Shown here piece after piece: positions 7,280-25,728 of a DNA stretch of 50,056 nt (position 1 is the first letter of the stretch; every line of letters starts with the position of its first letter). The stretch is from Ignavibacteriae bacterium HGW-Ignavibacteriae-2 (GTDB lineage: Bacteria; Bacteroidota; Ignavibacteria; Ignavibacteriales; Melioribacteraceae). The stretch is from the NCBI GenBank assembly GCA_002839805.1, contig PGYT01000017.1:1-50056 (forward strand), given 5' to 3'. A program made the position numbers and the translations under genes. Under the pieces are notes generated by a model. That model ran no database searches. It had not been told where the DNA came from and worked only from the letters and a program-made list of their open reading frames with translations.

Positions 7280-9037
7280 ATGTATAATTTTAGAAATATT
7301 TTCTTCCACCAGGAAGAATTTTATAAAATTACCCCTGTAAACCAAAAAGTTGACAGCTGGTTTGGTAGATTAAATTCATGGGCCAAAAAAAAACAATTTC
7401 AATATAAATTTGTTTTGATAATGACATTATTTTTGGGCTGTACTACAAATATCGATTCGCGCGCTGACATTTACATCAGAATTAATCAGGTTGGTTTTGA
7501 ACCCTCAGCAATTAAAAGTGCGGTTGTTCTCAGCGATTCGGATCTCTCTAATAACTACTACGAAATTATTGATAACAAAACATTTAAAGTTATAATCAAG
7601 GGTAAAATTGAGCGAAGTACTGGGAAATATGCCGCTTTCCCATATTCTTACAGAATTAATTTTAATTCTCTAACCGAAAAGGGAACTTATAAAATTAAGA
7701 TTAATGGGGTGTATTCATATTCATTTAAAGTAGAGAAAAATGTTTATAGCGGCATTCCCGCCAAATTGTTAACCTTTTTTACAGTGCAGAGATGCGGTTA
7801 TACAAATCCGTTTATGCATGAAATTTGTCATAAGGCCGATGCAACTTCTTTGATTGAGAATGGGATTACAATTAATAAATCAGTTGATGTTACCGGCGGA
7901 TGGCATGACGCTGGGGATTATGTTAAATTTATAAATACTACTGCTTATGCGACCTATTCTTTATTATTCGCCTATGAGTTAAATAAATCCAAATTTCAAT
8001 TTGACAACAATAACAACCAAATTCCTGATTTATTAGAAGAAGCAAAAATTGGTCTTGACTGGCTGCTAAGGTGTAATTTTGAAAAATTCAAATTAATAAC
8101 TCAGGTGCAGGATTTAAGGGATCATTCATTTGGATGGCGTTTACCGGAAAAAGACACTTTGGAGTTCGACAGACCAGCTTTCGTGGGAATGGGGAAAAAT
8201 ATTATTGGAATTTATGCCGCCACCATGTCGCTCGCTTCTCGTATTTGGCGCGAAAGATTTCAATTTGACGAATATGCCGATAAATGTTTGAATTCGGCGG
8301 AAAATTTATACTCAATTCATTCTTCTGTTCCCGATATTGATAATAGTACGATGGGAATATATCAAGATAAATCTTTCTTAGGCAAATTATCCTTAGGGGC
8401 GGTTGAATTGTATTTAACAACAAATCGCGCAGAATACTTAAAGGATGCAAAAAAATATGCTGATGAGGCAGGTCCGGAATACTGGTGGAGTTATGGTGAA
8501 ATATCCGATTTTGCGTTTTATCGGCTTTCACAATATGATATAAAATATGCCGAATTTATCGAAAAATCACTTTTGCATTTTCAAAATCAGATGAATTTAA
8601 AAGTATTTAACGAAGCTGTCGATTTCTTTTGGGGATCGAATAATACCTTGTTAGGTGTAGCTCTAAAAAATATTTTGTATAAAAAAATTACTAAAAGAAA
8701 TACTTTTGACGATTTAGCCGAGTCGCAAATAGATTATGTGCTTGGTAAAAACCCATGGGGTATCAGTTTTATAACTGATACAGGAACAAAATCAGCAAAA
8801 AATCTTCACCACCAAATCTCACATATTTTGGGCAAAAAATTACCGGGCGGATTTGCAGCGGGTCCTGTAAAAAAAGAAATAGTCAAAAACTATAATATTC
8901 AATATGACTCTATTGACAGATACGAATCATTTCAGTCCGACTCTGCGTATTATCGAGACGACAGAATGGATTATATTACGAATGAACCGACTATTATAGC
9001 AAATGCAACGGGCATTATAGTTTTTTCGGGATTTTAA
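7280..9037 (+). CDS. Glycoside hydrolase family 9 endoglucanase-like lipoprotein or secreted enzyme
   Basis: The 585-aa protein has a hydrophobic segment ending LFLGC (about residues 47-55), a plausible lipoprotein or signal site. An Ig-like CelD_N domain follows (IRINQVGFEPSAIKSAVV, about 65-155), then a GH9 (alpha/alpha)6 catalytic domain. GGWHDAGDYVKF carries the catalytic aspartates. YRDDRMDYITNEPTIIANA fits the second GH9 signature, with the acid Glu in TNEPT. In the first signature the usual HHR reads HHQ, which may change the substrate subsite. The family cleaves beta-1,4-glucans (cellulose, cello-oligosaccharides). The ~45 residues before the hydrophobic segment are unusually long, and I see no better start or strong RBS. 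Solitary gene. Confidence 0.88.
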   Translation: MYNFRNIFFHQEEFYKITPVNQKVDSWFGRLNSWAKKKQFQYKFVLIMTLFLGCTTNIDSRADIYIRINQVGFEPSAIKSAVVLSDSDLSNNYYEIIDNKTFKVIIKGKIERSTGKYAAFPYSYRINFNSLTEKGTYKIKINGVYSYSFKVEKNVYSGIPAKLLTFFTVQRCGYTNPFMHEICHKADATSLIENGITINKSVDVTGGWHDAGDYVKFINTTAYATYSLLFAYELNKSKFQFDNNNNQIPDLLEEAKIGLDWLLRCNFEKFKLITQVQDLRDHSFGWRLPEKDTLEFDRPAFVGMGKNIIGIYAATMSLASRIWRERFQFDEYADKCLNSAENLYSIHSSVPDIDNSTMGIYQDKSFLGKLSLGAVELYLTTNRAEYLKDAKKYADEAGPEYWWSYGEISDFAFYRLSQYDIKYAEFIEKSLLHFQNQMNLKVFNEAVDFFWGSNNTLLGVALKNILYKKITKRNTFDDLAESQIDYVLGKNPWGISFITDTGTKSAKNLHHQISHILGKKLPGGFAAGPVKKEIVKNYNIQYDSIDRYESFQSDSAYYRDDRMDYITNEPTIIANATGIIVFSGF

Positions 9038-9182: not shown

Positions 9183-10469
9183 ATGACTAAAGGTGTTAAT
9201 TTGATTTCGTCAGGTTTTTCGTTGATCGATAAAAGATGGGGCGGAATTTATAGAGGTGGAAGTTATTTGTTGATTGGACCTCGCAAATCAGGGAGAACAT
9301 TATTAGCCCTGCAGTTTGCTCTCGAATCGGCGAAAGCTTCGGAAGTATGTTTATATTTTACAAATATGCGTCCGAAGGATCTAATGATACAGGCGGCGTC
9401 TTTAAATTTTGATATACAATCTTATATGAATCAAAATCTGCTTATAGTTGTGCGTATCGCACCGCCAAATGAAATTTATGAAGTGCCCAATCCCGATGAT
9501 TTTTTAATAGAATATTTAAATGATATTATAACTGTAGTTAACGAATACAGACCGAGTAGAATTATTTTTGACGAACTTACTCCTTATATAGGTTTTTCAA
9601 ACTTGCATTTGTTACGTGATGCTTATCTTCATACATTGGAAACAATAGAAGATAAAAATATTACAAGTTTATTTGTTGTCGGTGAACCGGCCACTCAAAA
9701 AGCTCAGCAAATAGTCGATATATTAACCGAATCAGTTACCGCGAACATTTTCCTAAAAAAGAACACAGAGAAATTCGGAGGTCAGTTTTACGGTGGGTCT
9801 GTGGTAATTAGTCCTAATGTAGGACATACAGAAGGTCAGTTTTCCGCCGATTATATAATTGAACCATACAAAGGTGTGGCAGTAGAATATCCTCCCTTAA
9901 AAAATATGGATCAGACCATGGGTGTTAATACAGGTAGTAATTCATCTTCTGGTTCCATTGAATCCCACAAACAGATTATAATGCCTAAAATAGGCTTTAA
10001 ACGTGCGGATGAAGAAATATCTTTTTCAAATATATATTCCTACGATGATTTTCAACTGATATTAAACAATCAGATTGCGTTATTTAAATCGACCGGACAA
10101 ACATTTAATCTTATTTCTTTCAGATTAGATCCTACAGCTGCTGTTAAAGGTCTCTTAACTTTAAGCCAACTAAAAAACGCTGTCAGCAGGTCTATTGCCA
10201 AAAGGGATAAAGTTTGCGAATACGAAAATAGAATAATTGTACTAATAGTCAGAAGCAGCCCTAAAAACAGTGCTGATTTAATAGCGAACATGAAAAGTTT
10301 TCTGCCGAGCGTCGACCCCAGCTATTTGAAAGCGATTGCAGAATATATTTTAATTTATGACCTTGAAGTGAACGAAAATTTCGCTAATTCTAATGCTATG
10401 CTCGAAATTTTAGTCTCCGAACAAGGCGCCAGAGCCCATATTTCACTGAGTGATATTAACTGGGCATGA
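9183..10469 (+). CDS. KaiC/RecA-like ATPase-fold protein fused to a degenerate GGDEF-like domain
   Basis: Residues about 1-235 have a KaiC/RecA fold: a P-loop at 32-39 reads GPRKSGRT, with Arg38 where the essential Walker A lysine is expected, and Walker B is IIFDE (130-131). After a Ser/Gly/Asn linker (about 245-265), residues 285-400 follow the hydrophobic pattern of a diguanylate cyclase domain (F.LISFRLD..., then CEYENRIIVLIV at the GGDEF hairpin). The catalytic signature is replaced by EYENR and no RxxD inhibitory site is present. Cytoplasmic, with no signal or TM. The stop overlaps the TPR-barrel gene by four bases (ATGA), so the two are co-translated. A regulatory, perhaps nucleotide-sensing, role in polysaccharide export is inferred. 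PelD is a precedent for a dead GGDEF domain in such a locus. Confidence 0.75.
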   Translation: MTKGVNLISSGFSLIDKRWGGIYRGGSYLLIGPRKSGRTLLALQFALESAKASEVCLYFTNMRPKDLMIQAASLNFDIQSYMNQNLLIVVRIAPPNEIYEVPNPDDFLIEYLNDIITVVNEYRPSRIIFDELTPYIGFSNLHLLRDAYLHTLETIEDKNITSLFVVGEPATQKAQQIVDILTESVTANIFLKKNTEKFGGQFYGGSVVISPNVGHTEGQFSADYIIEPYKGVAVEYPPLKNMDQTMGVNTGSNSSSGSIESHKQIIMPKIGFKRADEEISFSNIYSYDDFQLILNNQIALFKSTGQTFNLISFRLDPTAAVKGLLTLSQLKNAVSRSIAKRDKVCEYENRIIVLIVRSSPKNSADLIANMKSFLPSVDPSYLKAIAEYILIYDLEVNENFANSNAMLEILVSEQGARAHISLSDINWA

Positions 10470-13400
10470 AAAAGATTCTATTCATATTGTTATTTATTTC
10501 CATAAATTATTCTTTAATAGGACAAGGCGTACAGGAAGGTTTAAAACGTCAGGCTTTAATCCATATGAATAATAAGAAATATGGCGAAGCAATAGACCTA
10601 TTGAACAAATATATTTCAAAAAACGCTCAAGTTGCCGAAGGTTATAACTTAAGAGCATTATGTTTTCAGAAACGGGCAGTTTATGAAAACGCTCATTTTG
10701 ATTTCAGAAGGGCGCGAAGACTGGAACCATCAAATCCGGAATTTATTAAAAACGAACAGAAACTTCGCGAAGAGTGGAATCCAATACTTTACGATAAAAT
10801 TGAAGGAAATAAACGGAATATTGCCGTTGAGCCGGACAACGCGTTTTATTACCTGGAAATTGGCAAGGCATACAGATGGCTCGAAGAATGGTCAACCGCA
10901 GAATATTGGTATGATGAATATTTGGCCCGAGATGATAACGCATCTCCGGATGAAGTTATAAGGTACACCTTAATACTTCAGGAAACCGGTAATCTTACAA
11001 AAGGGGAAAGAATATTAAAGAAATATGTTGAAAGATATCCCGAAGATTGGAGACTATGGAGTCGATACGGTTATTTTACTCTATGGCTGGGTAAATATAA
11101 AATATCGGAAAAAGCATTTAGTCAGGCGTTATTCTTTAAGCCGTTTTTTAAAGAGGCCTCCGATGGATTAGACCAGGCAAGAAAACAAGGTTACATAATA
11201 GTACAGCACGAAGGGGATTATAATTATTCGCAGAACGAACCTCGCGAATATCCAATCGATAGATATTTTCGCAAAATAAACCGAAATCCATCCGATTCCG
11301 AAACTAGATTTTTGCTTATTGGTGAACTTATTCCAGCCGAAAGATATGAAGAAGCTTATCAACAATTAAAATACTTGAAAAAGGATTTTGAAGGGACTGA
11401 AAAGTTCGATGCGTATTATTCTCAGGTTACACAAATTAGAGAAGAAACCTACGGCAAGAAAATCGAAGAAAATTTATTATTATTAAAAAATGATCCAACA
11501 AATAAAGATGCTCTGATTAAAATTGCTGGCAATTATGTTGGTTTGGAAAAATATGATGAAGCCGACGAATTATTATCCGAATATCTGGAACTGGTACCAA
11601 ATGATACCCAGGTTATGCTGCTTAGAGCAAAGTATTTATCCTGGATAAAGGAATTTACCAAAGCTTCGGAAATTTTGGCTAATTTAGTTGAAATTGAACC
11701 GGAAAATAGAGAAGCTGTCGATATGCTTGCTGACTTTTACGCCGCCGATTACGATTTTGATGCCTCTCTGGAAGTGCTCAAAAAATATCTGGCCAATTTT
11801 GATGAATCGAAAGAACTTGATGTAAGGTTCAAGTTAGCTCGTTATCTCGCATGGAATTATGACTGGGATGACGCTCGTGATGAAATTGAAATATTACTTA
11901 AATATGAACCGGACAATCTTGATTATCAATTGCTTTTTGCTCAGGTTACCGTTTGGACAGTAGATGATACCGAATTCCCTCGCGCAGAGGAGTATCTTAA
12001 TAATGTTTTAGCTTCCGATGAAAAAAATATTTTTGCTTTGCTCGGTATGTCCACAATTCGTTCCTGGCAAAGAAATCTGGAGGATTCAAAAAAATATATA
12101 GATCTCGCTAAAAAATACCATCCCGGAAATCCCGATATTGAAACGACTGAGAATTTCTATAATGCACAAATTATGGTAGCTGAGGATATTAAAAATCTTA
12201 AATTAAGGGAAGAAGCCGCTGAATTAGCCCAGAATGATGACTGTGCCGGAGCGTTGAATAAACTTCACGAATACTTTGCTCAGGTTGAAAATCCCGATTA
12301 TTACGCTTACATGGAATATGCAAATACCTACATGTGCGCCGGGGACTATAATTCAGCTATAGCAATTTATGACACACTGCTTAGTAAATCTCAGAATTTT
12401 GACGTGGCTATGCAGAGAGCAAAAGCATACCTTTATGTTCAGGATACACTAAAAGCCCGTCAGGCATTTAAAAATCTTGTAGAGGAGCAACCCGATAATT
12501 ATTATGCCCGCATGTTTTTAGGCGACACTTATCTTATGACGCAGGATTACGGGCGCGCAGAATCTATTTACGAGGATTTGTTGTCAGAAGCAATTGACAC
12601 GGAAGAAAAAGAATATTTGAATCAACGTTTGATCTCAATTCCTCCCTACGGATTTAATAAAGTTTTTTCCGGAGTTGTTACGGCTGTAATTCCTTATGCT
12701 GTAAGTATTATTCCAACAGGAGCTTATTATAACGATAACCAAAATTTGCAATACTACAATTATGGTGGCAGATTCGAAATGGGGTTTGCAAGGTATTTCA
12801 GAGCCGGAATCAGTTACTTGACAACTCGGCTGCAATCAAGCGATAATTTGGTATTTTTAAAGAGCCAGTATTTTACAAGTTTGATGGGAAATCTCTATGT
12901 ATCTCTGTCTGAAAAAATTGTTTTCGGCGGGGGTTTGGGTAGGATGAACATAGAATATGAAAAAAATAAAAATGTTGGTATGTTGATGGCCAGGTATGAA
13001 GATAAAGATCATCTTGGTGTAACTTTAATGTACGAAGATGATGATGTTAGAAGATCACTCCCGTCGCCTAGAATGTTGGGAGTTAGCCTGGATTCGTATT
13101 CGTATTTAATAAACGCATATTACATTTATAATAACAATGTAAAATTTGAGTATTTTTACAGATATATTGGGTTATCGGATAATAACGAGGGCAATGATTT
13201 CAGAATAAGGCTGGGGAAATTATTCAAATATAATGTTATGGTTGGTTATGAATATTCTTTCTCCGACTACAAATACAATCTGACATCTTATTATTCACCT
13301 AATAAGTTCGATACCCATTCGATTTGGGCAGATTGGAAATTTAATTACAATTTAAAGTGGGATGTATCCATTGGTGGTAAAATAGGCTATGCGCCAACAG

Positions 13401-13558
13401 TTGATTATGTTCTAAGTGAACTTTATTCTGAAGCCAAATACGAAATTATAGAGAATCTTTTTGCAAACGGTAGAATAGGTGTTGGTAATTCATTTCGGTT
13501 CGATTCAAGTTATAGATTTATATCGGCCTTCCTTTCTGTTTACTGGAGTTTCTTCTAA
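10466..13558 (+). CDS. TPR repeat protein with C-terminal outer-membrane beta-barrel (YaiO-like), putative polysaccharide exporter
   Basis: The 1030-aa protein has a Sec signal peptide (hydrophobic to about residue 18). Next come about 700 residues of TPR-type helical repeats (recurring A...G....A...Y...L...P patterns), and from about residue 730 an aromatic, alternating sequence ending in YWSFF, typical of an outer-membrane barrel with a terminal Phe. The barrel (about 300 residues) resembles the YaiO family. TPR-plus-barrel proteins such as PgaA, BcsC, PelB and AlgK/AlgE form the periplasmic scaffold and outer-membrane pore in synthase-dependent exopolysaccharide secretion. The four-base overlap with the KaiC-like gene and the GT2 synthase 1.6 kb downstream support the same job here. 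The exported polymer is unknown. Confidence 0.82.
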   Translation: MKKILFILLFISINYSLIGQGVQEGLKRQALIHMNNKKYGEAIDLLNKYISKNAQVAEGYNLRALCFQKRAVYENAHFDFRRARRLEPSNPEFIKNEQKLREEWNPILYDKIEGNKRNIAVEPDNAFYYLEIGKAYRWLEEWSTAEYWYDEYLARDDNASPDEVIRYTLILQETGNLTKGERILKKYVERYPEDWRLWSRYGYFTLWLGKYKISEKAFSQALFFKPFFKEASDGLDQARKQGYIIVQHEGDYNYSQNEPREYPIDRYFRKINRNPSDSETRFLLIGELIPAERYEEAYQQLKYLKKDFEGTEKFDAYYSQVTQIREETYGKKIEENLLLLKNDPTNKDALIKIAGNYVGLEKYDEADELLSEYLELVPNDTQVMLLRAKYLSWIKEFTKASEILANLVEIEPENREAVDMLADFYAADYDFDASLEVLKKYLANFDESKELDVRFKLARYLAWNYDWDDARDEIEILLKYEPDNLDYQLLFAQVTVWTVDDTEFPRAEEYLNNVLASDEKNIFALLGMSTIRSWQRNLEDSKKYIDLAKKYHPGNPDIETTENFYNAQIMVAEDIKNLKLREEAAELAQNDDCAGALNKLHEYFAQVENPDYYAYMEYANTYMCAGDYNSAIAIYDTLLSKSQNFDVAMQRAKAYLYVQDTLKARQAFKNLVEEQPDNYYARMFLGDTYLMTQDYGRAESIYEDLLSEAIDTEEKEYLNQRLISIPPYGFNKVFSGVVTAVIPYAVSIIPTGAYYNDNQNLQYYNYGGRFEMGFARYFRAGISYLTTRLQSSDNLVFLKSQYFTSLMGNLYVSLSEKIVFGGGLGRMNIEYEKNKNVGMLMARYEDKDHLGVTLMYEDDDVRRSLPSPRMLGVSLDSYSYLINAYYIYNNNVKFEYFYRYIGLSDNNEGNDFRIRLGKLFKYNVMVGYEYSFSDYKYNLTSYYSPNKFDTHSIWADWKFNYNLKWDVSIGGKIGYAPTVDYVLSELYSEAKYEIIENLFANGRIGVGNSFRFDSSYRFISAFLSVYWSFF

Positions 13559-13644
13559 ATTTATTTTACATCCATGTTGATAATTTCCAATAAGTAAACT
13601 ATCATATTTAACGCGTTTTTTTAGATTATTCGGAGAATTTTATT

Positions 13645-14907
13645 ATGAAGAAAAAGACTATAAGTCTGAAATCAATTCAAACAATCCTTTTTATTCTTAT
13701 AACTTTAAGTGTAAAAATATCAGCTATAGATTTTAATATAAAAGAATCAGATAATATTTTGAATAACAAAACCGAGTACAATACTCTTGCAATGTATTCC
13801 CAGTTGGGAAAAAACGTAGCATTAAAAGGCAATGTTAGTCAAATGAGTTACTTTTTTGAATCGTTAAAAACCACCAAATCAAAGCAAGTAAGGATTGCTC
13901 ATTTCGGCGATTCAATTATTTGGGGGGATATGATAACTTCGCAAATAAGAGAAACTTTGCAATCCAAGTACGGGGGACAGGGGATAGGATTTTTATCAGC
14001 TGCAAATGATGACGTTATGGTTAGAAGTACGCTTTTACACCGTTTTTCGGATGATTGGGATTGGGTTTCTGTATTCACAAAAAATTCCCAGCACTATCCT
14101 TTGAGTATCAATGGAATTACTTCTGTACCATCGGCAAATAGTTGGGTTTCGTATGAAGCTACAAATACACACAGCTCAGGTAAAAATTTTAAGGAAATCA
14201 CAATTATTTATGGAAATACTAATAATAACTCCAAAGTAAATATTACTGCGGGATCAGAAAACGCTTCAATGTCTTTAAGCCCGGGAAGTGATAAGGTTAA
14301 TATTCAAAAATATAAATTGAATAGCGAACAAAGTTCTGTTAAGTTGAAGTTTGATAATTGTGCCGGAAGTTATATCTATGGCATTTCACTTGAAAATGGA
14401 AACGGTGTTTATGTTGATAATTTTCCTATGAGAGGCAACAGCGGAATTTCTTTGAAGGATATTGATGATAATGTATTAAGAAAAATATCGACAGAGATGG
14501 ATTATAAACTATTAATCCTTAATTTCGGCATTAATGTAGTTGAAGCAGGAAAAACCGATTTTACAGGCTATGAAAAAAGAATGATCAGAGTAATTAATGA
14601 TCTTAAAAAAAGTTTCCCGGAAACAAGTATTATTATTGTTGGCGCGGGCGATAAGGCCGTAAAAAAAGGCTCCAAATTGGTATCCGATAAAATTGTGCCC
14701 AGGGTTGTTGCAGTTCAGGAAAAAATTGCAAACCAAACTGGCGTCGCATTCTGGAATATGTACGAAGCAATGGGATCTGAAGGTTCTATGAATAATTGGG
14801 TGGATGAAGGTTTGGCGGCCAGAGATTATATCCATTTTAGTGTTGAGGGTGGTAAAATAATTGCTGATTATCTATTAAATGCGATTATGAAGGAGAATAA
14901 GAATTAA
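13645..14907 (+). CDS. Secreted SGNH/GDSL-family hydrolase, putative polysaccharide O-acyl esterase or transferase
   Basis: The 420-aa protein has an N-terminal signal peptide or anchor (about 8-27). SGNH blocks are all visible: HFGDSI with Ser90, the Gly of NFPMRGNSG, GIN in LLILNFGINVV, and Asp394/His397 in DYIHFSVEGG near the end. These form the catalytic set of SGNH esterases. In alginate and cellulose loci, related proteins (AlgJ, AlgX, WssE types) add or remove acetyl groups on the polymer in the periplasm. Lying between the export barrel and the synthase, this one probably modifies the polysaccharide; acetylation versus deacetylation cannot be told apart. It has its own 86-base upstream gap and a GGAGAA RBS. 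Confidence 0.8.
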   Translation: MKKKTISLKSIQTILFILITLSVKISAIDFNIKESDNILNNKTEYNTLAMYSQLGKNVALKGNVSQMSYFFESLKTTKSKQVRIAHFGDSIIWGDMITSQIRETLQSKYGGQGIGFLSAANDDVMVRSTLLHRFSDDWDWVSVFTKNSQHYPLSINGITSVPSANSWVSYEATNTHSSGKNFKEITIIYGNTNNNSKVNITAGSENASMSLSPGSDKVNIQKYKLNSEQSSVKLKFDNCAGSYIYGISLENGNGVYVDNFPMRGNSGISLKDIDDNVLRKISTEMDYKLLILNFGINVVEAGKTDFTGYEKRMIRVINDLKKSFPETSIIIVGAGDKAVKKGSKLVSDKIVPRVVAVQEKIANQTGVAFWNMYEAMGSEGSMNNWVDEGLAARDYIHFSVEGGKIIADYLLNAIMKENKN

Positions 14908-15054
14908 ATTTGATATAAATAATAATTTAATTTATTATTCGTTGTATGTTAACGATTTATCTGAATAAATTTTCAAAATACTTTAATTTGTTTTGGTAAC
15001 TTATTCTATTGCAAGAAGTTATAAAAATAGTTATTTTTAATCAAAATTTGTATT

Positions 15055-15157
15055 GATTTGAGTCAGTTCATATTCTTTGTACATATATAGAACAATAATT
15101 TTCAATTAAACTTGATTTATACTTAATTTTCTCAACTTTTTGTGGCACTATTGTTGG
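15055..15157 (+). promoter_or_regulatory. Candidate promoter region of the GT2 operon (sigma-54-like element with upstream ATTTGAGTCA motif)
   Basis: TGGCAC (15143-15148), five bases, then TTGG (15154-15157) resembles a -24/-12 element, with GG 46 bases before the ATG. Upstream, ATTTGAGTCA near 15056-15065 recurs upstream of the KaiC-like gene (about 9078-9087). The rest of the 282-base gap 14908-15189 is AT-rich with no other signal I can support. Both calls are tentative. Confidence 0.28.
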
Positions 15158-15189
15158 CTTATATTTATCAATAAAAATATGAATTTAAA

Positions 15190-16608
15190 ATGACTGACGA
15201 TAAACAAATAAGAAAATATTCAATTGAATTAGACAATAGAGAATTACGCCCACCATCGAGAAATGAACGGTTTGAAAAATTGAGAATGATCTGGGTTTCG
15301 GGCGTACTCTCGGTAATTCTAATTGTTATAATTCTTATCACATTACCCCAAACCGTTTTATCATGGAACGGATTGTTCGTTTACGCCTCTATCGTAAGTC
15401 TGGTGATTTTCCTTTTCGTATTATTATTCAGGTATTTTTCAATTCTTGTTTTAGCTTATCTCTATATAACAAAATATACAGTTGAAAATAAAGGTGGATA
15501 TTATCCTTTTATCTCTATTATAGTTCCGGCGTATAACGAAGGTATTACATTGCACGATTCCATTAATTCTTTGCTGGAACTCGATTACCCTAACTACGAA
15601 ATTATAATTGTTAACGACGGATCTACAGATAATACTGCTCAAATTGCAGAATCTATTGTGGGCAATAGAACTGGTAAAATTTCAAATGTAAAAATCTCAC
15701 TGATAAATAAACCTAACGGTGGTAAGGCAAAAGCTTTAAATGCGGGTATTCAATATAGCGAAGCTGACTTTGTGCTTTGTATGGACGGGGATTGCCAATT
15801 AACTCCAGGCACGCTTAAAAACGGCATAAGACATTTTATAGATCCTTCTGTTGGAGCTGTTGCTGGAAACGTTAAAATTGAAAACCGCAGAAAATTTTTA
15901 ACCGACTTACAGGCTTTGGAATATGTAGAGGGTCTTAATCTGCCTCGCAGCGCCCAGGGACAATTGCAGCAGGTGAATATAATTCCAGGACCGATTGGAA
16001 TATTCAGAAAAGTAGCTTTAAGAGATGCGGGTTTCTACTCAAGTGATACTTTTGCCGAAGATGCTGATATAACACTTAAAATATTAGCCAGCGGCTGGAA
16101 AATAAGTTATGAACCTACCTCTATTGCTTTAACTGAAGCGCCAACCAAGTTGCATCAGCTGCTTAAACAAAGATACAGATGGACGAGAGGCATTTTACAG
16201 GCAATTAGAAAACATAAACAGCATATTTTTAATCCAACTATAAATTTTTCAAATACTCTTGTTTTGTGGTCCATGTTTTATGAAGCCCTATTGTGGCCGG
16301 CGATGAATATATTCGCTAATCTGTTTTTTATTGTTGTAGCGTTGGTTTATGGAATGTCGGGATTGATATTTTTCTGGTGGCTTGGCATAGCCTTGTTGGA
16401 TTTTATGGCGGCTATTTATTGTATAGCAGTTGAAAAGGAAGAGTTTAGGTTAGTTCCTTACGCTATAATTTACAGGGTTGTTTTCGTTTTATTGATAGAT
16501 ATAACAAAAGCGATGGCAACTGTTGAAGAATTTATTGGGATTAAGATGGAATGGGGAAAATTAGAGCGACAAGGTTTTAGTGGAAATTCCTCATCAACAA
16601 ATGTTTAA
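15190..16608 (+). CDS. PgaC-like processive family 2 glycosyltransferase (polysaccharide synthase)
   Basis: 472 aa. About two N-terminal membrane spans (about 33-58 and 62-95) precede a GT2 domain: Asp143 in IVNDGSTD, DGD at 199-201 (CMDGDCQ), the catalytic-base region AED (TFAEDADITL, 289-291) and QRYRW at 327-331. About three C-terminal spans follow (about 357-440). D, DxD, ED, QxxRW is the signature of processive synthases that polymerise and push the chain across the inner membrane. NKPNGGKAKALNAGI and the terminal VEEFIG..MEWGKLER closely resemble poly-N-acetylglucosamine synthase (PgaC/IcaA). There is no PilZ domain. It heads a five-gene operon (15190-24313). The polymer could be a beta-linked hexosaminan, but that is inference. 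Confidence 0.9.
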   Translation: MTDDKQIRKYSIELDNRELRPPSRNERFEKLRMIWVSGVLSVILIVIILITLPQTVLSWNGLFVYASIVSLVIFLFVLLFRYFSILVLAYLYITKYTVENKGGYYPFISIIVPAYNEGITLHDSINSLLELDYPNYEIIIVNDGSTDNTAQIAESIVGNRTGKISNVKISLINKPNGGKAKALNAGIQYSEADFVLCMDGDCQLTPGTLKNGIRHFIDPSVGAVAGNVKIENRRKFLTDLQALEYVEGLNLPRSAQGQLQQVNIIPGPIGIFRKVALRDAGFYSSDTFAEDADITLKILASGWKISYEPTSIALTEAPTKLHQLLKQRYRWTRGILQAIRKHKQHIFNPTINFSNTLVLWSMFYEALLWPAMNIFANLFFIVVALVYGMSGLIFFWWLGIALLDFMAAIYCIAVEKEEFRLVPYAIIYRVVFVLLIDITKAMATVEEFIGIKMEWGKLERQGFSGNSSSTNV

Positions 16609-16629
16609 AAATATAACTTGGAGTGAGAT

Positions 16630-17121
16630 ATGGAATTAATTCCTATACTATCTCTTATAATTTTAGTAGCAACTATTTCAACTTTTATACTGGCAGTAGG
16701 AGCTTATATTCTCTATAAAGTAAGAGAAAATAAATCTAGGCAAGCAGTGGCACAACCGTCTACAGTTCAGGCAGAACTTATTTCTCCAATGCCTATTATG
16801 ACGGAACAAACAATAAGCAGAACTAGAAGTTATACTGCAGATCGGTATCCAACAAGAGAGTCTTACCAAGAACCGATATACGCTCCTGCTCAAGATGGTG
16901 TTCCGCAAATGCGTCCAACTTTTGTTAATCCCCCACAAGCCGATCATGGTGCTCCGGAATCGCAGAGATATCAATATCAGAGAACTGTAGAAAGACCAAT
17001 GGAATATGACAGGCAGACTGCGGCAAGAAAGTTTACTCGTTACACTACTGCCGAACATAACCAGGAAGCCAAAAGAACAAAATCTAAACAAGACGAGAAG
17101 GATAGCCTTAGATGGCGTTAA
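16630..17121 (+). CDS. Small one-TM protein with long polar, disordered tail; possible synthase partner
   Basis: 163 aa. One strong membrane helix (about 3-30), then about 130 residues rich in Gln, Arg, Pro, Tyr and Thr with no predicted fold and many basic residues. A good RBS (GGAGTGAG) precedes the ATG. It lies 21 bases after the synthase and overlaps the next gene by 10 bases. I recognise no family. By position and size it corresponds to PgaD or IcaD, small membrane partners of the synthase, but those have two membrane spans and no such tail. The arginine-rich tail could bind protein, lipid or nucleotide; this is speculation. Confidence 0.7.
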   Translation: MELIPILSLIILVATISTFILAVGAYILYKVRENKSRQAVAQPSTVQAELISPMPIMTEQTISRTRSYTADRYPTRESYQEPIYAPAQDGVPQMRPTFVNPPQADHGAPESQRYQYQRTVERPMEYDRQTAARKFTRYTTAEHNQEAKRTKSKQDEKDSLRWR

Positions 17122-19043
17122 AAATTCCCGAAAAATCTAACGTTAAGTCCGAATCTTCTAAATCACACAGTGGTTTAAGGGTTAATTATCTGATTATATT
17201 TCTGAGCGGACTCGTTATACTTATCGGAGGAATTCTTGTATTTCTTCTTATAATTAAAAATGTATACGGTAATTATGAGATAGAAGAAATTCTGCCAACA
17301 AGAGAAAATTTACGACAATTGGCTTTCGAGGAAAAAGCAGCAATTTTATACTCCAGGTATACCGAAAATAGACTGCCTGAAGGGGAAACATGGGTGCAGG
17401 ATAACATTAACACCTGGGAATCTTACCTGGGCATATTCAAAATGAAGTATGATGTAATCAGCGATATCGATCTGGAAAAAGGGAAACATTTTAATTATAA
17501 GATATTAATTCTTCCTGGAACATTTTCTTTGAGCGATAGGGAAATAATACAGATTAAAAAATTCCTTGACGATGGAGGCAGCGTTTTTGCCACCGGAGGT
17601 CCTGCAACTTATTCCGACGAAGGCAAATGGCGAGGCTGGGACTTTTTTACCGAGTGTTTTGGTCTAAGGTTTATAAAAGAATTAAAACTTGAAGACCAGT
17701 CGAAAATTCATACCTTAAGGGGTAACCTGCCAATTACTGCGGACATACCAACTGGTTATACATTAAAAATTGCGACTTGGGATAGACCAATTTACGCTGA
17801 AGTTTTGGAACCCAGGACAACTCAAATTAGTTTCTGGTACAATTACAGAAAAGAAAAAGGATTAGTAAGAGAAGAAATCAAAAAAAGCGCGGGCAGCGCT
17901 TATGGATTTTATGGTAAAGGAAGATTCGTTTGGTTTGGTTTCAATTTGAATTCAGTTATTGGCGAGAGGGATGACTTTATTTATTTTGAAAAACTGATAA
18001 AAAATTCAGTCCACTGGCTTACATATAGACCAACATCGTTTATTAAAGATTGGCCCGAGCCCTATGTTGCGGCGGCGATAATTATACCGGTTGTCGGCAA
18101 CGAGATTGGCAATGTATACAATTCAACAAAGTTGTTTAGTAGAATTGGTTACGATCCAACTGTTTTTGTAGATGCCAATCTGTATCTGGATAATCCCGGA
18201 GTATATAAAAATTTGCGTGCTAATAAACAACTGGGATTAATATCGGATATCGGATTTTTAGAATCTGCTAAGGATACAGTGAATAAACTTGACGATAAAA
18301 CTACGCAATTTAGCAATCTGAAAAAATCTAAAGATAGTACTGAGGCTATAAGTGGAGCAAAGGTTCGGGGGTTTATGCCCTATTATGGCTTCTATAACGA
18401 ATTTACACTTCAGGCAATGGCAAAAGCAGGTTATGAATTTTTAATAACCGACTCTTTAATTGGAAGATCTGTTCCGAAAATTGAAATAAGAGAGAATAAG
18501 CCAATAATGATTATTAACAAAACCGCTCGTGATGATTACGATATAATAAGAAAATATGGATTAACTGACAAAAGATTTCAGGAATATACTTACAAAGAGG
18601 ATATTGACAGACTTATTTTTGAAGGTGGTTTATATGTGCTTAAAGTGCATACAGACGGTCAATTATTGTCGAATTACTCCGATGTGATTGATGCTCTTGT
18701 TAAGCACATGCGTAAAAATAATATTTGGCTTACAACTGTCCCTGAACTGCAAACGTGGTGGCGTCAGAAAGGTGGAATTGAAGTCAGATACGAAACACGC
18801 AGTAAAAGACGTGTTACTGTAGAGGTTTCTAATCCACGTGATACAGATATGACCGATTTTGTCGTGCAGGTAAACCTGAATAAAAAAATTAAAGATATTG
18901 AAATATCAGCCGAAATTATAAATACGAAACTGCCGAAATATCGTTTCGACGACTCAACCAATATATTATATCTTTTTATAGATCAGTTAAAATCGGGTGA
19001 GACTCGGATTTATCTTGTTGATTTTAAAAATGTTGCAGTATAG
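17112..19043 (+). CDS. Membrane-anchored protein with GATase-like domain and degenerate NodB-like (polysaccharide deacetylase) fold
   Basis: 643 aa. A cytoplasmic N-terminal tail, one TM helix (about 25-48), then a large periplasmic part. Residues about 95-290 look like a class I GATase/beta-galactosidase-trimerisation-type Rossmann domain (YKILILPGTFSLSDREIIQIKKFLDDGGSVFATGG). Residues about 315-560 follow the NodB barrel: GYDPTVFVD, then MPYYGFYNEFTLQAMAKAGYEFLITDS at the MT3 position, then VLKVHTDGQ. The metal-binding motifs are missing: the TFDDG position reads IIIPVVG (about 323-329) and no HxxxH follows. A small beta domain ends the protein. It is probably a non-catalytic polymer-binding or scaffold partner of the synthase. 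Start chosen by AGAAGGA RBS and the 10-base overlap. Confidence 0.72.
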   Translation: MALKIPEKSNVKSESSKSHSGLRVNYLIIFLSGLVILIGGILVFLLIIKNVYGNYEIEEILPTRENLRQLAFEEKAAILYSRYTENRLPEGETWVQDNINTWESYLGIFKMKYDVISDIDLEKGKHFNYKILILPGTFSLSDREIIQIKKFLDDGGSVFATGGPATYSDEGKWRGWDFFTECFGLRFIKELKLEDQSKIHTLRGNLPITADIPTGYTLKIATWDRPIYAEVLEPRTTQISFWYNYRKEKGLVREEIKKSAGSAYGFYGKGRFVWFGFNLNSVIGERDDFIYFEKLIKNSVHWLTYRPTSFIKDWPEPYVAAAIIIPVVGNEIGNVYNSTKLFSRIGYDPTVFVDANLYLDNPGVYKNLRANKQLGLISDIGFLESAKDTVNKLDDKTTQFSNLKKSKDSTEAISGAKVRGFMPYYGFYNEFTLQAMAKAGYEFLITDSLIGRSVPKIEIRENKPIMIINKTARDDYDIIRKYGLTDKRFQEYTYKEDIDRLIFEGGLYVLKVHTDGQLLSNYSDVIDALVKHMRKNNIWLTTVPELQTWWRQKGGIEVRYETRSKRRVTVEVSNPRDTDMTDFVVQVNLNKKIKDIEISAEIINTKLPKYRFDDSTNILYLFIDQLKSGETRIYLVDFKNVAV

Positions 19044-19075
19044 ATTTAATACTTTTATAGGGGTTGTAAATCGGG

Positions 19076-21016
19076 GTGAAAAAATCGGATAACAAAATAT
19101 TTAATTGCTTTAATTCTAATCTGATTAGAATCTATAAAAATATTATTGCGATTATAGGTGTATTTACTTTAGTATTTTTTTCGGTTAAATGTGTTGAAAC
19201 TAATGTTAATGGACCTGGCGGCGACGGGACCACTGGAACCTATGAAATAACGCTTAATGTATCATATCCTCTTAATGGCGATTCACTTCGAATGGGTAAA
19301 AATAATATTATTTATCAGGCGCTCGAAGCATCCGGAGGAGCGGGATTGGCTGGATTTGATTTATTTGTTGGTCTTCCGGGACAAGTAGCGGTAAACTTAC
19401 AATCATTCCCTGTTGTTACAGATGGCATTAATCCAGAAATTTATATCCACACCGATACCATTGAGACAAAATTAGGCATTAATCCCTCAAACTTTCCATC
19501 GCGTATTAGTTATTGGCTAACTGCGTATAGCAAAAGTTCAGGTGTTGAGGCAAAAGCCATTAAAATACAGGATAGCATATTCGTAGACAGACGACCTGAA
19601 ACACCGGCAAGTTTAATTTTAGTGAGAATTACAAATACTTCGTTTAATCTTTCATGGAGCGATTTATCATCAAATGAAACGAAATATGAGTTATGGAGAA
19701 AAGATGGTAATAATGCAGGGTTTTTAAAAATTAACGAACTTCCGGCTAATTCAATTAGTATAAACGATTTTGTCTCTTCCGCATTCATAACCTATTATTA
19801 TAAATTACGGGCGGTAAATGGATTTGGCTCATCCTCTTTCAGCAACGAAGTTAATTCCAGCGGAATAGCAGGAGGCGGGCAGCCTACAAATTTAAAAGCC
19901 GAAGCTTTGGGGGCCACAAAAGTAAAGTTAACATGGATTGACAATTCAAACGATGAACTCGGATTTATTGTTCAGCGTACAAATCCATTAAATGGGCAAT
20001 GGGAAGAGATTGCTCGATTAACAAGTAACAATACGGAGTATTTTGATAATACTGTAAAGGGTGGAACTGCATATTCGTATCGTGTGGCTTCATATACTAG
20101 TACATCATTCAGTGCTTGGTCCAACACAGCTACAATTACAACTTTTACCCAGGATGTCTCGCCACCTTTAAATTTAACGGCAAAATATTTATCTAGTGAA
20201 GACGCGGTATTGATTCAATGGATAGATAATACTAATCAGGAGACTGGAACTCTAATTGAAAGAAAAGATGGGCTAACGGGTCAATTTAAAGAAATAGGAT
20301 CGCAGAATACAGATTTCACTTCTTATATTGACACAAACATTGTTCCTAATACCACTTATACATATAGAGCCCGCCATTCTACTATGAGCGGTTTCAGAAC
20401 AGATTATTCAGATACTGCTCAGGTTTATGTTCCTCTGCTGCCGCCGAAGGCGCCGTCAGATTTGAGAATAACAGAGTTTGAAACCAATAAAGTTTATGGA
20501 TTGGTTTGGTCTGATAATTCGAATAACGAGGATGGTTTTGAATTATTAAGAACGGAATCAGTAACTAATGTGATGAAAATACTTAAATTTCCCGCAAATG
20601 CAAGAGCACATAACGACACTATTCCGGATCCTTCAAAAACTTATTATTATAAAATCCGCTCATACAAAGGAACTCTTTATTCGGATTATTCGAATCAGGT
20701 TGATACAAAAGGAGGCGGAACAAAACTAAGTGCGCCTACAAATCTATCCGCGGCACAAGCATCCGGTCAAATAGCGGTTAATCTGACTTGGAGCTATAAT
20801 TCTACAAATAATCTGGGTTTTGTAGTGGAACGAAAATCGGTATCTGACCTTGTTTATACCGAAATCGCTCGAGTCTCACCAAATGCCAGAACCTATTTGG
20901 ACAATACAAATTTGCAGGTAGGTAATACTTATGTATACAGGATAAAAGCATATAACAGTACCGAAGAATCAGTTTATTCTAATTTGTCCCAGACAATTAC
21001 TGTAACAGCTCCTTAA
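19076..21016 (+). CDS. Exported protein with five fibronectin type III domains
   Basis: 646 aa from a GTG start with AGGGG 11 bases upstream; no ATG fits near the signal. A hydrophobic segment (about 22-38) ending SVKC is a signal peptide or atypical lipoprotein site (Lys before Cys is unusual). A beta-rich N-terminal domain follows (about 55-165), then five FN3 modules of about 95 residues (about 175, 270, 360, 455 and 550 onwards), each with the conserved W/(S/I)D.S.(N)E core and a Y.YR(V/I) strand. It has no sorting domain and no catalytic site. Located 32 bases after the NodB-like gene and 6 bases before the sensor gene, it is part of the polysaccharide operon. It may bind polymer at the cell surface or in the periplasm. 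Confidence 0.8.
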   Translation: MKKSDNKIFNCFNSNLIRIYKNIIAIIGVFTLVFFSVKCVETNVNGPGGDGTTGTYEITLNVSYPLNGDSLRMGKNNIIYQALEASGGAGLAGFDLFVGLPGQVAVNLQSFPVVTDGINPEIYIHTDTIETKLGINPSNFPSRISYWLTAYSKSSGVEAKAIKIQDSIFVDRRPETPASLILVRITNTSFNLSWSDLSSNETKYELWRKDGNNAGFLKINELPANSISINDFVSSAFITYYYKLRAVNGFGSSSFSNEVNSSGIAGGGQPTNLKAEALGATKVKLTWIDNSNDELGFIVQRTNPLNGQWEEIARLTSNNTEYFDNTVKGGTAYSYRVASYTSTSFSAWSNTATITTFTQDVSPPLNLTAKYLSSEDAVLIQWIDNTNQETGTLIERKDGLTGQFKEIGSQNTDFTSYIDTNIVPNTTYTYRARHSTMSGFRTDYSDTAQVYVPLLPPKAPSDLRITEFETNKVYGLVWSDNSNNEDGFELLRTESVTNVMKILKFPANARAHNDTIPDPSKTYYYKIRSYKGTLYSDYSNQVDTKGGGTKLSAPTNLSAAQASGQIAVNLTWSYNSTNNLGFVVERKSVSDLVYTEIARVSPNARTYLDNTNLQVGNTYVYRIKAYNSTEESVYSNLSQTITVTAP

Positions 21017-21022
21017 TATACT

Positions 21023-24000
21023 ATGAACGAATTTGTTAAAAATATTATCGAGAATTCATTTGATGACGCCGCTTTAGTGGTTGATAAACAAAACCGCGTG
21101 GTAAATTCAAATGATAAAGCATCGGTATTTTTAAAGGAATTCGAGCTTCTTGATTCTGGTGCTAAATCGATTGACATGGACAGAAATAATGAGTTCGTCC
21201 TTCTCCTAAATAGTATAACAAATCTGCATTCATATGAAACTCGTGTAATAACATTAAAATCTGAAAGATCAATTAAAGTTTTTGATGTTGGATTATCTCC
21301 AATTCCTCAAAATGAAAAAAATGAATACCTGCTTTTAATTAAAGAACATAAATCGGGAAAGAGTTTAAAATATAAGTTTTGTATCAACGAAACAGAAATC
21401 GATAAGTATCTGTTGGATGAACAAATAAACTCTATTTTAGAAAAAGTTAAAACATCATATCCATTTACATTTATAGGACGACAAAAATTTCAAAGGGAAA
21501 TTGATAAATTAAATAGAGAATTCTGGATTAAAGAACCTAATGGTAAGGTAGTTTTAGCTAATAAGGAATTTGCGCAAAAAATAAATGTAAAACAAAATCA
21601 GATTCAGGGCAGGAATATTAAGGAATTTTTTAATTCTATAGATGCTGAGGTGATGAATAACAGCGATAATTTCCTGAATAAAACCGCGCGAACTATTATA
21701 ATCCAATTAAAAAATGATAGATATCTTCAATTCCCTCTGGTTGATTTAGATGGAAATATAGCTGCAATAATTTCCTTCTCCGTCGAGTATGAAAATGATG
21801 TTATCTCTGTAGTTGAAAAACCCGCTCCAAAAATTACTGAAAATTATTTCTCTGAATTAAGTTCACCCATTCTTATTTTGAATGAGGAATGCAAAAAACA
21901 AGCGGTTAGTAAATCTTACGAACAGTTGTTTTTTGATCATTTAAATAATCTAATTGATACCGATTCCGGATTACCGAAGATTATTTTACCCGATGTAAAG
22001 AAATTTATAGTGAGCAAAGAAGAGAATGTTTCATATCCAGATTGTTTATTTCAAACCAAAGACAAACAAGAATATCTATTTCAGTTGAGGAAAATATTTA
22101 AGGAAAGTAAACTTGAATATATTTTAGTTGAACCAACTGTAAAAATAACTTCAAACTACAAAACAGAATTGAAGGTTAAAATGTACGATATAATAATGCA
22201 TACAAGCCCAGAGCCAATGTTTATTTACAATATAGAAAACTTAAAATTTCTAGAAGTGAATCACGCTGCGTTAAATTTATATGGTTATACAAAGGATGAA
22301 TTCCTTGAGATGGATTTAACCGATCTTTATGCGCCCGAAGATATTCAGACATTGATTGAAACATCGCCGAGCAAAACGACGTCATCGGATTTTACAGGTC
22401 CTTGGCGCCATAAACATAAAACTGGGAAAAATATTCTTGTAGAAATTAGTAAATCAACATTAGAATACAGTGGAAGGCGTGCTCATTTTAACATTATTAG
22501 AGATGTAACTCAATATTTAGAAGAAAAAAAACAACTTCAGAAGTTTAAAGCCGCTTTTGACAATACAAGCGACTTAATTATTATGACGGATAAAGATGGA
22601 TTTATTACGACCTACAACTCAAATTTTCTTGAAAAATTCGGTTACAGTCAGAATAAACCCGATCAGAAACCATTGTTAAGTTTAATTGTGGACGAAGACC
22701 GCGCGAGGATTAATTCGGAAATATTCCACTCAGGTATTAAAACAAAAATAAGTTTTAATACAAAAGTTAAAGCCGCCGATGGCAGTTTTGTACAAGCCAA
22801 AATTATTGCTGATCCGATAACCGACTTCGACGATAACATAGAGTCGTTTAATTTAACAATTAAGCCAAAGGAAGATATTGCCGATCAGCAGGATGAGAAG
22901 ACCGTTGGAAAAACAATAAGTCGACATTCAATCGATCCCTCTTTTTTGTCCAATCTATTTCACGAAATATTGACTCCCATTAATGTGATAACAGGTTTTG
23001 TGCAGGAACTTTCCGAAAGTATTCAGGCGCCAAACGAAGAACAGAAGGAAGCAATTGGTTTTATTAAAGATAACCAGCAGATGCTTCTACAAATTATGGA
23101 TAACGCTGTTGAGTATTCCAATCTTGAACAACAGAATTTTGAAATAGTACCAGAATCAATTGTGTTTGTGGAAATACTTGAAGAAATTGAAGAAAATGTG
23201 AGCAAATTCGCTAAATCAAAAAATGTGGATTTTTCGTACGGTAAAATATCTTCATCTCTAAAGTTTGTGTCGGATAAACAAAAATTTACAACTTTAATAT
23301 CCTTACTTGTTAAAGTGGCAATAACCGCGAGTAATAAAAAGAAAATATATTTATCGGCCTATCAAACAAAAAATCAAAATTTTATTGTCTCCTTAAAAGA
23401 CGATCGAGCCAGTATTTCGGCGGAAATGGTAAAAAATATTAATGATATTTTTACACTCGATGAAAATGTAATAAAACAAAATTTTGGAATATCGAGATTT
23501 GCTCTTCGATTAACGAGAAGACTTGCAATGCTTCTCCAGAGTGAAAGGGAAGTTATTAAACATGCAAATATTCCAAATGATTATGCATTTGAGTTTCCTA
23601 TTGAATTAATTATTCAAACGAAAATTTCCGATGAAGCTGAAGAACCGGAAAATAATCTCTCGGCTTCAATACCACAAATTATTATTAATGATGATGTACC
23701 GGAATTACCAAAAGTCAGAGAACAGGAAAGTGTTTTAAGTAAAGATATATTTGAGCATTTAAAAGAAACGGCTTTGGATGTCGATATTCAACCTGCTGAA
23801 AAAAATGTGGACGCACCCGACATTATTATTGATAGTCCAAGCACTTCGGCCGAAATAGAAAATGAGCCTGAAATTCAAATTACTTCTGATGAATCTGAAG
23901 AATTATTAGAAGTACCTGCGACAGTTGAAAATAAAATAAGCAAAAATTTCACAGAACTTTCCTGTTTGTATGTAGAGGATCAGGTCGATTCTCAAATACT

Positions 24001-24313
24001 CTTTAAAGTTCAGATGAAGGATTTGAAATTAATTGAATTCGCTACAAGTTTCGAAAAAGCTCTTCCTCTTATCCAATCCCGCAAGTTCGATTTTATTGTT
24101 ATGGATATCAACCTGCAGGGGGAATACAATGGTTTGGACGCGCTAAGGGCTATCCAAAAAATGCCTGAATATTCGAAAATTCCTATAATAGCTGTTACCG
24201 CTTATGTTCTGCCTGGTGATAAAGAGAAGTTTATTAAAGCTGGATTTAGGGATTTTATTAGCAAACCAATACTTCGCGACAAACTAAAGAATGTGATCGG
24301 AAAAATATTTTAA
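21023..24313 (+). CDS. Multi-PAS hybrid histidine kinase-like protein with degenerate ATPase domain and intact receiver
   Basis: 1096 aa, no TM helix, so cytoplasmic. Several PAS-like units: weak ones in the first 370 residues, then clear PAS at about 385-500 (MYDIIMHTSPEPMFIYN) and 505-615 (AAFDNTSDLIIMTDKDG). The dimerisation helix carries His647 in LFHEILTP. The following ATPase region lacks the standard N box (SLLVKVAITAS instead of N..NA..) and the DxGxG box (LKDDRAS), with only a remnant NFGISRFAL at the G2 position. A Glu/Asp-rich linker leads to a receiver domain (about 975-1096) with acidic ED, Asp1028 (VMDINL), Thr in AVTAY and Lys1081: intact. It is probably a phospho-receiver or scaffold rather than an active kinase, and the last gene of the polysaccharide operon. 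Confidence 0.85.
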   Translation: MNEFVKNIIENSFDDAALVVDKQNRVVNSNDKASVFLKEFELLDSGAKSIDMDRNNEFVLLLNSITNLHSYETRVITLKSERSIKVFDVGLSPIPQNEKNEYLLLIKEHKSGKSLKYKFCINETEIDKYLLDEQINSILEKVKTSYPFTFIGRQKFQREIDKLNREFWIKEPNGKVVLANKEFAQKINVKQNQIQGRNIKEFFNSIDAEVMNNSDNFLNKTARTIIIQLKNDRYLQFPLVDLDGNIAAIISFSVEYENDVISVVEKPAPKITENYFSELSSPILILNEECKKQAVSKSYEQLFFDHLNNLIDTDSGLPKIILPDVKKFIVSKEENVSYPDCLFQTKDKQEYLFQLRKIFKESKLEYILVEPTVKITSNYKTELKVKMYDIIMHTSPEPMFIYNIENLKFLEVNHAALNLYGYTKDEFLEMDLTDLYAPEDIQTLIETSPSKTTSSDFTGPWRHKHKTGKNILVEISKSTLEYSGRRAHFNIIRDVTQYLEEKKQLQKFKAAFDNTSDLIIMTDKDGFITTYNSNFLEKFGYSQNKPDQKPLLSLIVDEDRARINSEIFHSGIKTKISFNTKVKAADGSFVQAKIIADPITDFDDNIESFNLTIKPKEDIADQQDEKTVGKTISRHSIDPSFLSNLFHEILTPINVITGFVQELSESIQAPNEEQKEAIGFIKDNQQMLLQIMDNAVEYSNLEQQNFEIVPESIVFVEILEEIEENVSKFAKSKNVDFSYGKISSSLKFVSDKQKFTTLISLLVKVAITASNKKKIYLSAYQTKNQNFIVSLKDDRASISAEMVKNINDIFTLDENVIKQNFGISRFALRLTRRLAMLLQSEREVIKHANIPNDYAFEFPIELIIQTKISDEAEEPENNLSASIPQIIINDDVPELPKVREQESVLSKDIFEHLKETALDVDIQPAEKNVDAPDIIIDSPSTSAEIENEPEIQITSDESEELLEVPATVENKISKNFTELSCLYVEDQVDSQILFKVQMKDLKLIEFATSFEKALPLIQSRKFDFIVMDINLQGEYNGLDALRAIQKMPEYSKIPIIAVTAYVLPGDKEKFIKAGFRDFISKPILRDKLKNVIGKIF

Positions 24314-25183: not shown

Positions 25184-25244
25184 CAAATATTCTATGATAA
25201 ATGTTTAAAACCGAAGTTATGATCGTAAATTCGAGAAGAAATTT

Positions 25245-25684: not shown

Positions 25685-25728
25685 AAAATTTTAAACAAGT
25701 TTTAAAACAATTATAGAAGTAGGATAAA

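Follow-up and report, generated by a model that had tools for sequence, protein, structure and literature searches.

An operon of Ignavibacteriales predicted to encode a distinct synthase-dependent exopolysaccharide system

Is a gene cluster that resembles several known polysaccharide secretion machines a variant of one of them, or a machine of its own? The question is raised by a run of genes on the forward strand of contig PGYT01000017.1 of Ignavibacteriae bacterium HGW-Ignavibacteriae-2 (family Melioribacteraceae; assembly GCA_002839805.1, 99.92% complete, 147 contigs), located within a stretch of 50,056 nucleotides that was analyzed as a whole and is referred to as the window. An earlier note, made from the letters of the window, had described eight of these genes, here named A to H, as a synthase-dependent exopolysaccharide system distinct from Pga, Pel, alginate and Bcs. 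We find it probable on balance that they do encode a distinct system of this kind, with a polymer most likely of beta-1,4-glucan type and a control that does not run through cyclic di-GMP (c-di-GMP) in the order Ignavibacteriales. The claim of distinctness is supported by linkage that is conserved both in the order and in further families, by a clade of its own for the glycosyltransferase family 2 (GT2) synthase, and by tests in which hallmark features of Pga, Pel and Bcs were not found.

A check of the open reading frames (ORFs) returned all eight genes with the coordinates, plus strand, overlaps and short gaps given by the note. A and B overlap by 4 bases, E and F by 10 bases, and the intergenic distances from D through H are 21, -10, 32, and 6 bases. 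The extent of the cluster was one gene too short, as a gene for a glycoside hydrolase family 9 (GH9) protein at 7280–9037 had been overlooked. The labels KaiC, TPR, SGNH, GT2, FN3, and PAS were recovered by Pfam or NCBIfam, while the GATase and NodB labels of F fell below the Pfam cut-offs and were recovered from an AlphaFold2 fold.

Gene order within and beyond Ignavibacteriales

F is present in 55 of the 294 genomes of the class, namely in 54 of the 59 genomes of the order and in G131 of family f14, which is not part of the order. Stretches surrounding F, up to 20 kb in length, were fetched from all 54 other hit genomes, giving 55 loci, two of them from one genome. Same-strand adjacencies were counted in 54 loci, which represent G131 and 53 genomes of the order; L085, a fragment from a genome already included, was dropped, and the window itself was not counted. 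D–E and E–F are adjacent in all 54 loci, B–D in 52, A–B in 50, F–G in 48, and GH9–A and G–H in 46 each. The gene order seen once in the window hence recurs in other Ignavibacteria, and it is conserved far above chance. The eight loci without the GH9–KaiC adjacency are of several kinds. In L063, L066, and L068, a contig or stretch end is close by; in L056, L075, and L078, the stretch contains neither of the two genes; L080 lacks GH9, and L083 lacks the KaiC protein. In the genomes of L056 and L078 (G245 and G135), GH9, KaiC, and TPR-barrel genes stand together on another contig; in that of L068 (G266), a close GH9 gene lies ca. 5.6 kb upstream of further KaiC-type ORFs; and that of L080 (G125) has elsewhere a GH9 of 33% identity only. 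L083 belongs to G131, the genome of another family, where the order is B-GT2-E-F-FN3-GH9 with GH9 shifted downstream of the FN3 gene. This cluster was perhaps acquired by horizontal transfer.

The operon is all-or-none in the order, since four of the five genomes lacking F (G199, G274, G176, G251) also yielded no counterpart of A, and the best GT2 matches there are at 25–28% identity. The fifth genome (G207, contig C30; L250:7400-14364) carries a reduced operon composed of a KaiC protein, a shortened B in which Pfam finds no TPR, a GT2-like protein that falls short of the Pfam cut-off and, on inspection by eye, has none of the usual motifs, a small protein resembling E (E-value 3e-4), and the PAS kinase; F was not found in its genome. 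This variant reflects either decay or a new use. Tandem copies also occur in the order: G266 has three KaiC-type ORFs of 420, 249, and 356 residues (L254:1334-4579), and G233 has two full-length TPR-barrel genes (L255:3078-8957). A second F match lies near F in G125, G269, G119, G191, and G113.

A profile search of the phylum (Bacteroidota in GTDB) with F was positive in 68 of 395 genomes, of which 37 belong to the order and 31 do not. Thirteen of these 31 have strong matches (E ≤2e-39), distributed over families f51 (eight), f39 (three), f52 (one), and f61 (one), and the loci of all but one of them (G327) were fetched. The order A-B-D-F is kept in eight of the 12 distant loci, six of f51 (L229, L231, L232, L236, L240, L257) and two of f39 (L235, L258). 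E is recognized at 1e-16 or better in 10 of the 12. In the six f51 loci just named it is clearly recognized, with GT2 on one side and F on the other; at this place the two f39 loci have a longer, weakly matching ORF (E 1e-4 and 5e-4). As to the other distant loci, L256, L233, and L230 reach contig ends, L234 (f52) has GT2-E-F with no recognized TPR-barrel gene, and L230 (f61) has E-F only. A second F-like gene is found in 10 of the 12 distant loci, and in the six f51 loci with A-B-D-F order it lies 3′ of F. The KaiC, TPR-barrel, GT2, E, and F genes thus form the core; no GH9 was recognized in the 12 distant loci, and GH9, SGNH, and kinase genes look like lineage additions. One f39 genome (G311) has a GH9 of 32% identity elsewhere. 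Among the 18 genomes outside the order with weaker F matches, three loci (L237-L239) were viewed; no other core gene was recognized in them, and, as far as these loci show, the weak matches do not belong to this system.

Searches in wider sequence collections gave the following picture. A single-sequence scan of genome contigs with F had no match, and an alignment-based scan retrieved 115 relatives. The best 80 of them are titled Ignavibacteria, Melioribacter(aceae), Ignavibacteri(aceae/ales), Stygiobacter, Bacteroidetes/Bacteroidota, Chlorobiota, Chlorobiaceae, or ‘bacterium’. No relative of F was found in the viral contigs scanned, and the distant F sequences had no match in plasmids. Among the matches listed in the open-licence PMC literature, no description names this system. 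The main text of a 2020 census of synthase-dependent operons does not contain the words Bacteroidetes, Ignavibacteri, or Chlorobi (PMC7112194).

The neighborhood of the operon was also inspected. Downstream, window positions 24560–26229 hold lexA and an MGMT gene, and lexA is present in the fetched stretch of 18 of the 55 relatives' loci. Upstream, positions 75–3515 encode a large Calx-beta/FN3/FlgD-Ig protein, which is probably a surface protein.

The synthase, its proposed partners and the polymer

D (15190–16608) is predicted to be an inner-membrane GT2 synthase of processive type (PF00535, E 6e-34). Its motifs NDGS, DGD, ED, and QRYRW are invariant across 21 aligned sequences. In a GT2 tree, D and its distant copies form a clade of 14 sequences with support of 89/95, a value below the starred level of the tool. 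The clade stands apart from PgaC/IcaA, NodC, BcsA with curdlan synthase (CrdS), and large GT2 fusions; the branches of Kocuria, CrdS, and Prevotella are long in this tree, and its joins of NodC with BcsA and relatives carry a warning. Plasmids carry GT2 relatives of ca. 31–39% identity (L168, L169, L170, L247, L249), which are large proteins of 757–1149 residues, one of them annotated as a polysaccharide deacetylase/GT2 fusion. E (16630–17121) is a small protein with one transmembrane (TM) segment, proposed as a membrane adaptor on account of its linkage and its invariant columns in 23 sequences. Its N-terminal TM segment (MELIPI..GAY..YK.RE) is conserved, as is its C-terminal end. For B, E, G, and the GH9 protein, TM segments and signal peptides were judged by eye.

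The AlphaFold2 model of F (17112–19043) was built on an alignment of 61 sequences, with a predicted local distance difference test score (pLDDT) of 84 and a predicted template modelling score (pTM) of 0.83. It contains one TM helix, a GATase-like domain (residues 73-306), a CE4/NodB-fold domain (residues 313-555), and a C-terminal beta-sandwich. Its structure matches include CE4 proteins (Z 25), proteins of GH42/GATase type (Z ~18–21), and the CE4 pseudoenzyme BA3943 (Z ~18–19), and the Foldseek list also holds PelA (9cgy, hit 26) and human NDST1. The motifs of the NodB domain were read by their known roles in CE4 enzymes, whose metal ligands are an Asp and two His. The closely spaced His pair of motif 2 is found within residues 340-420 in none of the 54 aligned sequences of the class. 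Because these paired metal-binding His are missing, the NodB-fold domain is probably a non-catalytic guide, that is, a pseudoenzyme by motif. In 11 distant F sequences, the motif-5 His is absent from all, an Asp pair near motif 1 occurs in two, and a His in the motif-2 stretch occurs in four.

From the GT2 similarity, the earlier note had suggested a hexosaminan as the polymer. This is not supported. The best curated match of D is indeed PgaC_IcaA (E 9e-60), but its 202.7 bits compare with a cut-off of 422.3, D groups with neither PgaC/IcaA nor NodC, all 54 F sequences lack the motif-2 His pair, and the linked hydrolase is a GH9 instead of a hexosaminidase. A divergent Pga/Ica system for poly-N-acetylglucosamine (PNAG), in which D would make poly-N-acetylhexosamine with F as a PgaB-like partner, would share with the present one a compact GT2, a NodB-fold partner with its motif-5 His, and a TPR-barrel exporter, and it would fit the deacetylase/GT2 fusion among the relatives of D. 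The points just given, together with the additional GH9 and KaiC proteins, make it unlikely. The likeness to Pel concerns F, which like PelA combines a deacetylase fold with a beta-rich domain. PelA has both hydrolase and deacetylase activity; F differs in that its model has no glycoside hydrolase domain and its sequence no motif-2 His pair. The synthase is a GT2, whereas the Pel synthase PelF is of GT4 type.

The note had also counted SGNH and NodB enzymes among the core parts. The SGNH/GDSL hydrolase C (13645–14907; PF13472, E 5e-8, 34.1 bits, just above the cut-off of 32.9) lies near F in 21 of the 55 loci, so it is optional, an accessory that may act as an O-acyl esterase or transferase; the NodB-like domain, as described, resembles a pseudoenzyme.

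The hydrolase that is linked in the order is the GH9 lipoprotein (7280–9037), an endoglucanase-family protein with a CelD_N Ig-like domain (PF02927) and a GH9 domain (PF00759, E 2e-76). The motifs DAGD and NE, whose roles in GH9 enzymes are known, are each kept in 45 of 46 aligned sequences, and a lipobox-like FLGC was recognized by eye. GH9 members are mostly beta-1,4-glucanases. We favor a beta-1,4-glucan in this lineage because GH9 is linked to the operon, and is linked at a different position in G131. For plants, the family is described as beta-1,4-glucanases (PMC3537678).

B (10466–13558) is the proposed exporter, composed of a TPR superhelix and, by its appearance, a C-terminal outer-membrane barrel. 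Of the TPR-plus-barrel label given earlier, the TPR half is confirmed by TPR families; the barrel is recognized above threshold by neither family nor PDB sequence searches and is proposed from appearance and position. The TPR part matches the PrsT, PgaA, and BcsC models, all below cut-off (PgaA model TIGR03939: 29.5 bits vs 366.65). G (19076–21016) is an FN3-repeat protein (PF00041, E 5e-18) with a lipobox-like N-terminus by eye. It had been said to contain five FN3 domains; Pfam finds three significant stretches, and five is a count by eye. H (21023–24313) is a hybrid kinase with PAS, HisKA, and receiver domains above the Pfam cut-offs and HATPase below.

With a GT2 of processive type, a TPR-barrel protein by appearance, and a periplasmic partner in one operon, the cluster answers to the general description of a synthase-dependent system. 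The glycan might serve another use, such as a sheath, adhesion, or a motility-linked surface polymer, and not be released as matrix. Its presence in 54 of 59 order genomes, perhaps as a housekeeping surface structure, and the FN3 lipoprotein are in keeping with this, and release of the polymer is a prediction from the genes. The combination of a TPR-barrel and a periplasmic partner, however, is the layout of known matrix-polymer exporters, and we give such a use a low probability, slightly below that of a Pga variant.

The proposed regulator A and c-di-GMP signalling

A (9183–10469) has an N-terminal KaiC-fold NTPase domain (residues ~1-240; PF06745, E 3e-20), which matches KaiC by model with Z ~26, and a C-terminal GGDEF-like domain (residues ~285-400). 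It differs from the KaiC family in having a single KaiC domain, a Walker-A Lys that is mostly replaced by Arg (45 of 50 sequences of the order and all eight distant ones), and the GGDEF-like domain. The residues that we take to be the catalytic Glu pair of KaiC are also replaced. A is proposed to be a cytosolic regulator.

The label GGDEF-like is kept because helices and strands of the C-terminal domain follow one another as in GGDEF and because PF17853 (GGDEF_2) matches below cut-off in three of the six distant A orthologues scanned. PF00990 is absent from the families listed for 19 A sequences. A combined profile of the C-terminal domain gave E 6e-5 against two GGDEF domains and 0.013 against a larger, lineage-biased set; an earlier comparison gave P 0.023 and 0.27, respectively. 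Column-shuffled controls scored higher in the larger-set comparison, over shorter stretches, and the test is weak in that the known GGDEF-type domain of BcsE was also missed against the same two (0.75). The Arg of the I-site (RxxD) is present in six of eight distant A copies and in none of the 50 of the order. Binding of c-di-GMP by A in Ignavibacteriales was dropped as a candidate function, as the I-site Arg is missing in all 50.

We then inspected c-di-GMP signalling in the order. One GGDEF-family match, and no more, was found in every one of the 58 genomes searched. The 30 best-scoring of these 58 matches were read (proteins of ~620–650 residues; L171, L180-L208), and all 30 have a broken GGDEF motif. 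PilZ was found in none of the 58, and the positive controls in E. coli and others matched in both searches. Thus neither a c-di-GMP synthase nor a PilZ receptor was detected in the order; EAL, HD-GYP, and other receptors were outside the search. This suggests an apparent loss of c-di-GMP synthesis at the level of the order.

The architecture of A recalls BcsE. In BcsE, the N-terminal domain is predicted to be RecA-like; it was superposed on KaiC and has a divergent Walker A. Degenerate receiver and GGDEF domains come next, and in cellulose synthesis BcsF brings the protein to the membrane (PMC7439463). The sequence similarity of A to BcsE is not significant: hhalign gave P 0.16–0.45 with nine BcsE sequences and 0.022 at best with combined profiles. 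The BcsE family PF10995 is below cut-off in two of 19 A sequences (best E 0.043) and in the KaiC protein of G207 (E 7e-5, 22.0 of 25 bits), its search of the window's own genome did not pick up A, and BcsE is absent among the 50 matches listed in each of two structure searches with A, all of which are KaiC-type folds. The parallel is therefore best described as one of architecture, not of established homology.

Least probable is a divergent Bcs system making true cellulose with a BcsA-like synthase and BcsE/BcsF-like and BcsZ-like partners, since the shared parts of the E. coli type (GT2 synthase, TPR-barrel exporter, endoglucanase-family hydrolase, a small TM protein like BcsF, and a degenerate GGDEF-type domain behind a KaiC/RecA-like one as in BcsE (PMC7439463)) and the sub-threshold PF10995 matches are set against a D that lacks PilZ and is far from BcsA in the tree, no PilZ found in the window genome, no BcsB among the eight operon proteins and ten flanking ones (the rest of the genome was not searched), a GH9 in place of the GH8 BcsZ, and no significant similarity of A to BcsE.

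A proposed mechanism and its meaning

We infer the following scheme of secretion, interactions, topology, polymer identity, and control from the gene order, conservation, domain content, losses of key residues by motif, and undetected c-di-GMP synthase and PilZ described above. D would polymerize a beta-linked chain, in this lineage most likely a beta-1,4-glucan or a related chain, and pass it across the inner membrane. E would sit beside D and use its cytosolic tail to keep A near the synthase, a role comparable to the recruitment of BcsE by BcsF. F, tethered by its TM helix, would guide the periplasmic chain through its NodB-fold domain and beta-sandwich to B, which would act as the TPR-barrel exporter. 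Like BcsZ, the GH9 lipoprotein may trim or clear polymer that was mis-exported. Family-eight cellulases are reported as regular members of bacterial cellulose operons (PMC5070118), and a clearing role is reported for the periplasmic lyase AlgL (PMC8829089). Control in Ignavibacteriales would not involve c-di-GMP and would probably run via A and via H, the PAS hybrid kinase linked to the operon.

Several observations weigh against this scheme. For the polymer, GH9 was recognized in none of the 12 distant loci and not found in the five f51 genomes searched, so that the polymer of the family at large cannot be deduced from it; genes 5′ of GH9 are often syntenic in the order, so that its linkage perhaps reflects general synteny in part; the genome of the window has a second GH9; and the sugar used by D can be read neither from its motifs nor from an identity of ~30%. 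The clade of D, as noted, falls short of the starred support. For F, 53 of the 54 class sequences retain the motif-5 His and two have an Asp pair near motif 1, which makes some activity possible. The barrel of B had no match in the PDB sequence search and only sub-threshold Pfam matches in 18 sequences, one to OMP_b-brl and one to BCSC_C (E 0.027). As to A, the Walker-A Lys is kept in five of 50 order sequences (and in the G207 copy), the alignments with BcsE are not significant, and A was not found in the genome of G131, where B, D, E, F, G, and GH9 are present.

A wider reading can be offered tentatively, as one possibility. The operon may represent a separate secretion family in at least two classes, in which enzyme-like parts have turned into scaffolds (A into a KaiC/GGDEF-like regulator of pseudo-ATPase type, F into a pseudo-deacetylase that guides the chain), c-di-GMP control has been replaced, and a GH9 like that of plant KORRIGAN has been added. 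A switch away from c-di-GMP is proposed because the RxxD Arg occurs in distant copies of A and in none of the order, and c-di-GMP signalling was undetected there.

The preferred reading, a distinct synthase-dependent system, would add a conserved and apparently unnamed member to the short list formed by cellulose, PNAG, Pel, and alginate. It bears on the matrix biology of a lineage for which we found little literature. The order would provide a natural case for testing how a machine of this type is regulated independently of c-di-GMP, and also whether BcsE-type regulators and KaiC-GGDEF proteins have a common ancestor.

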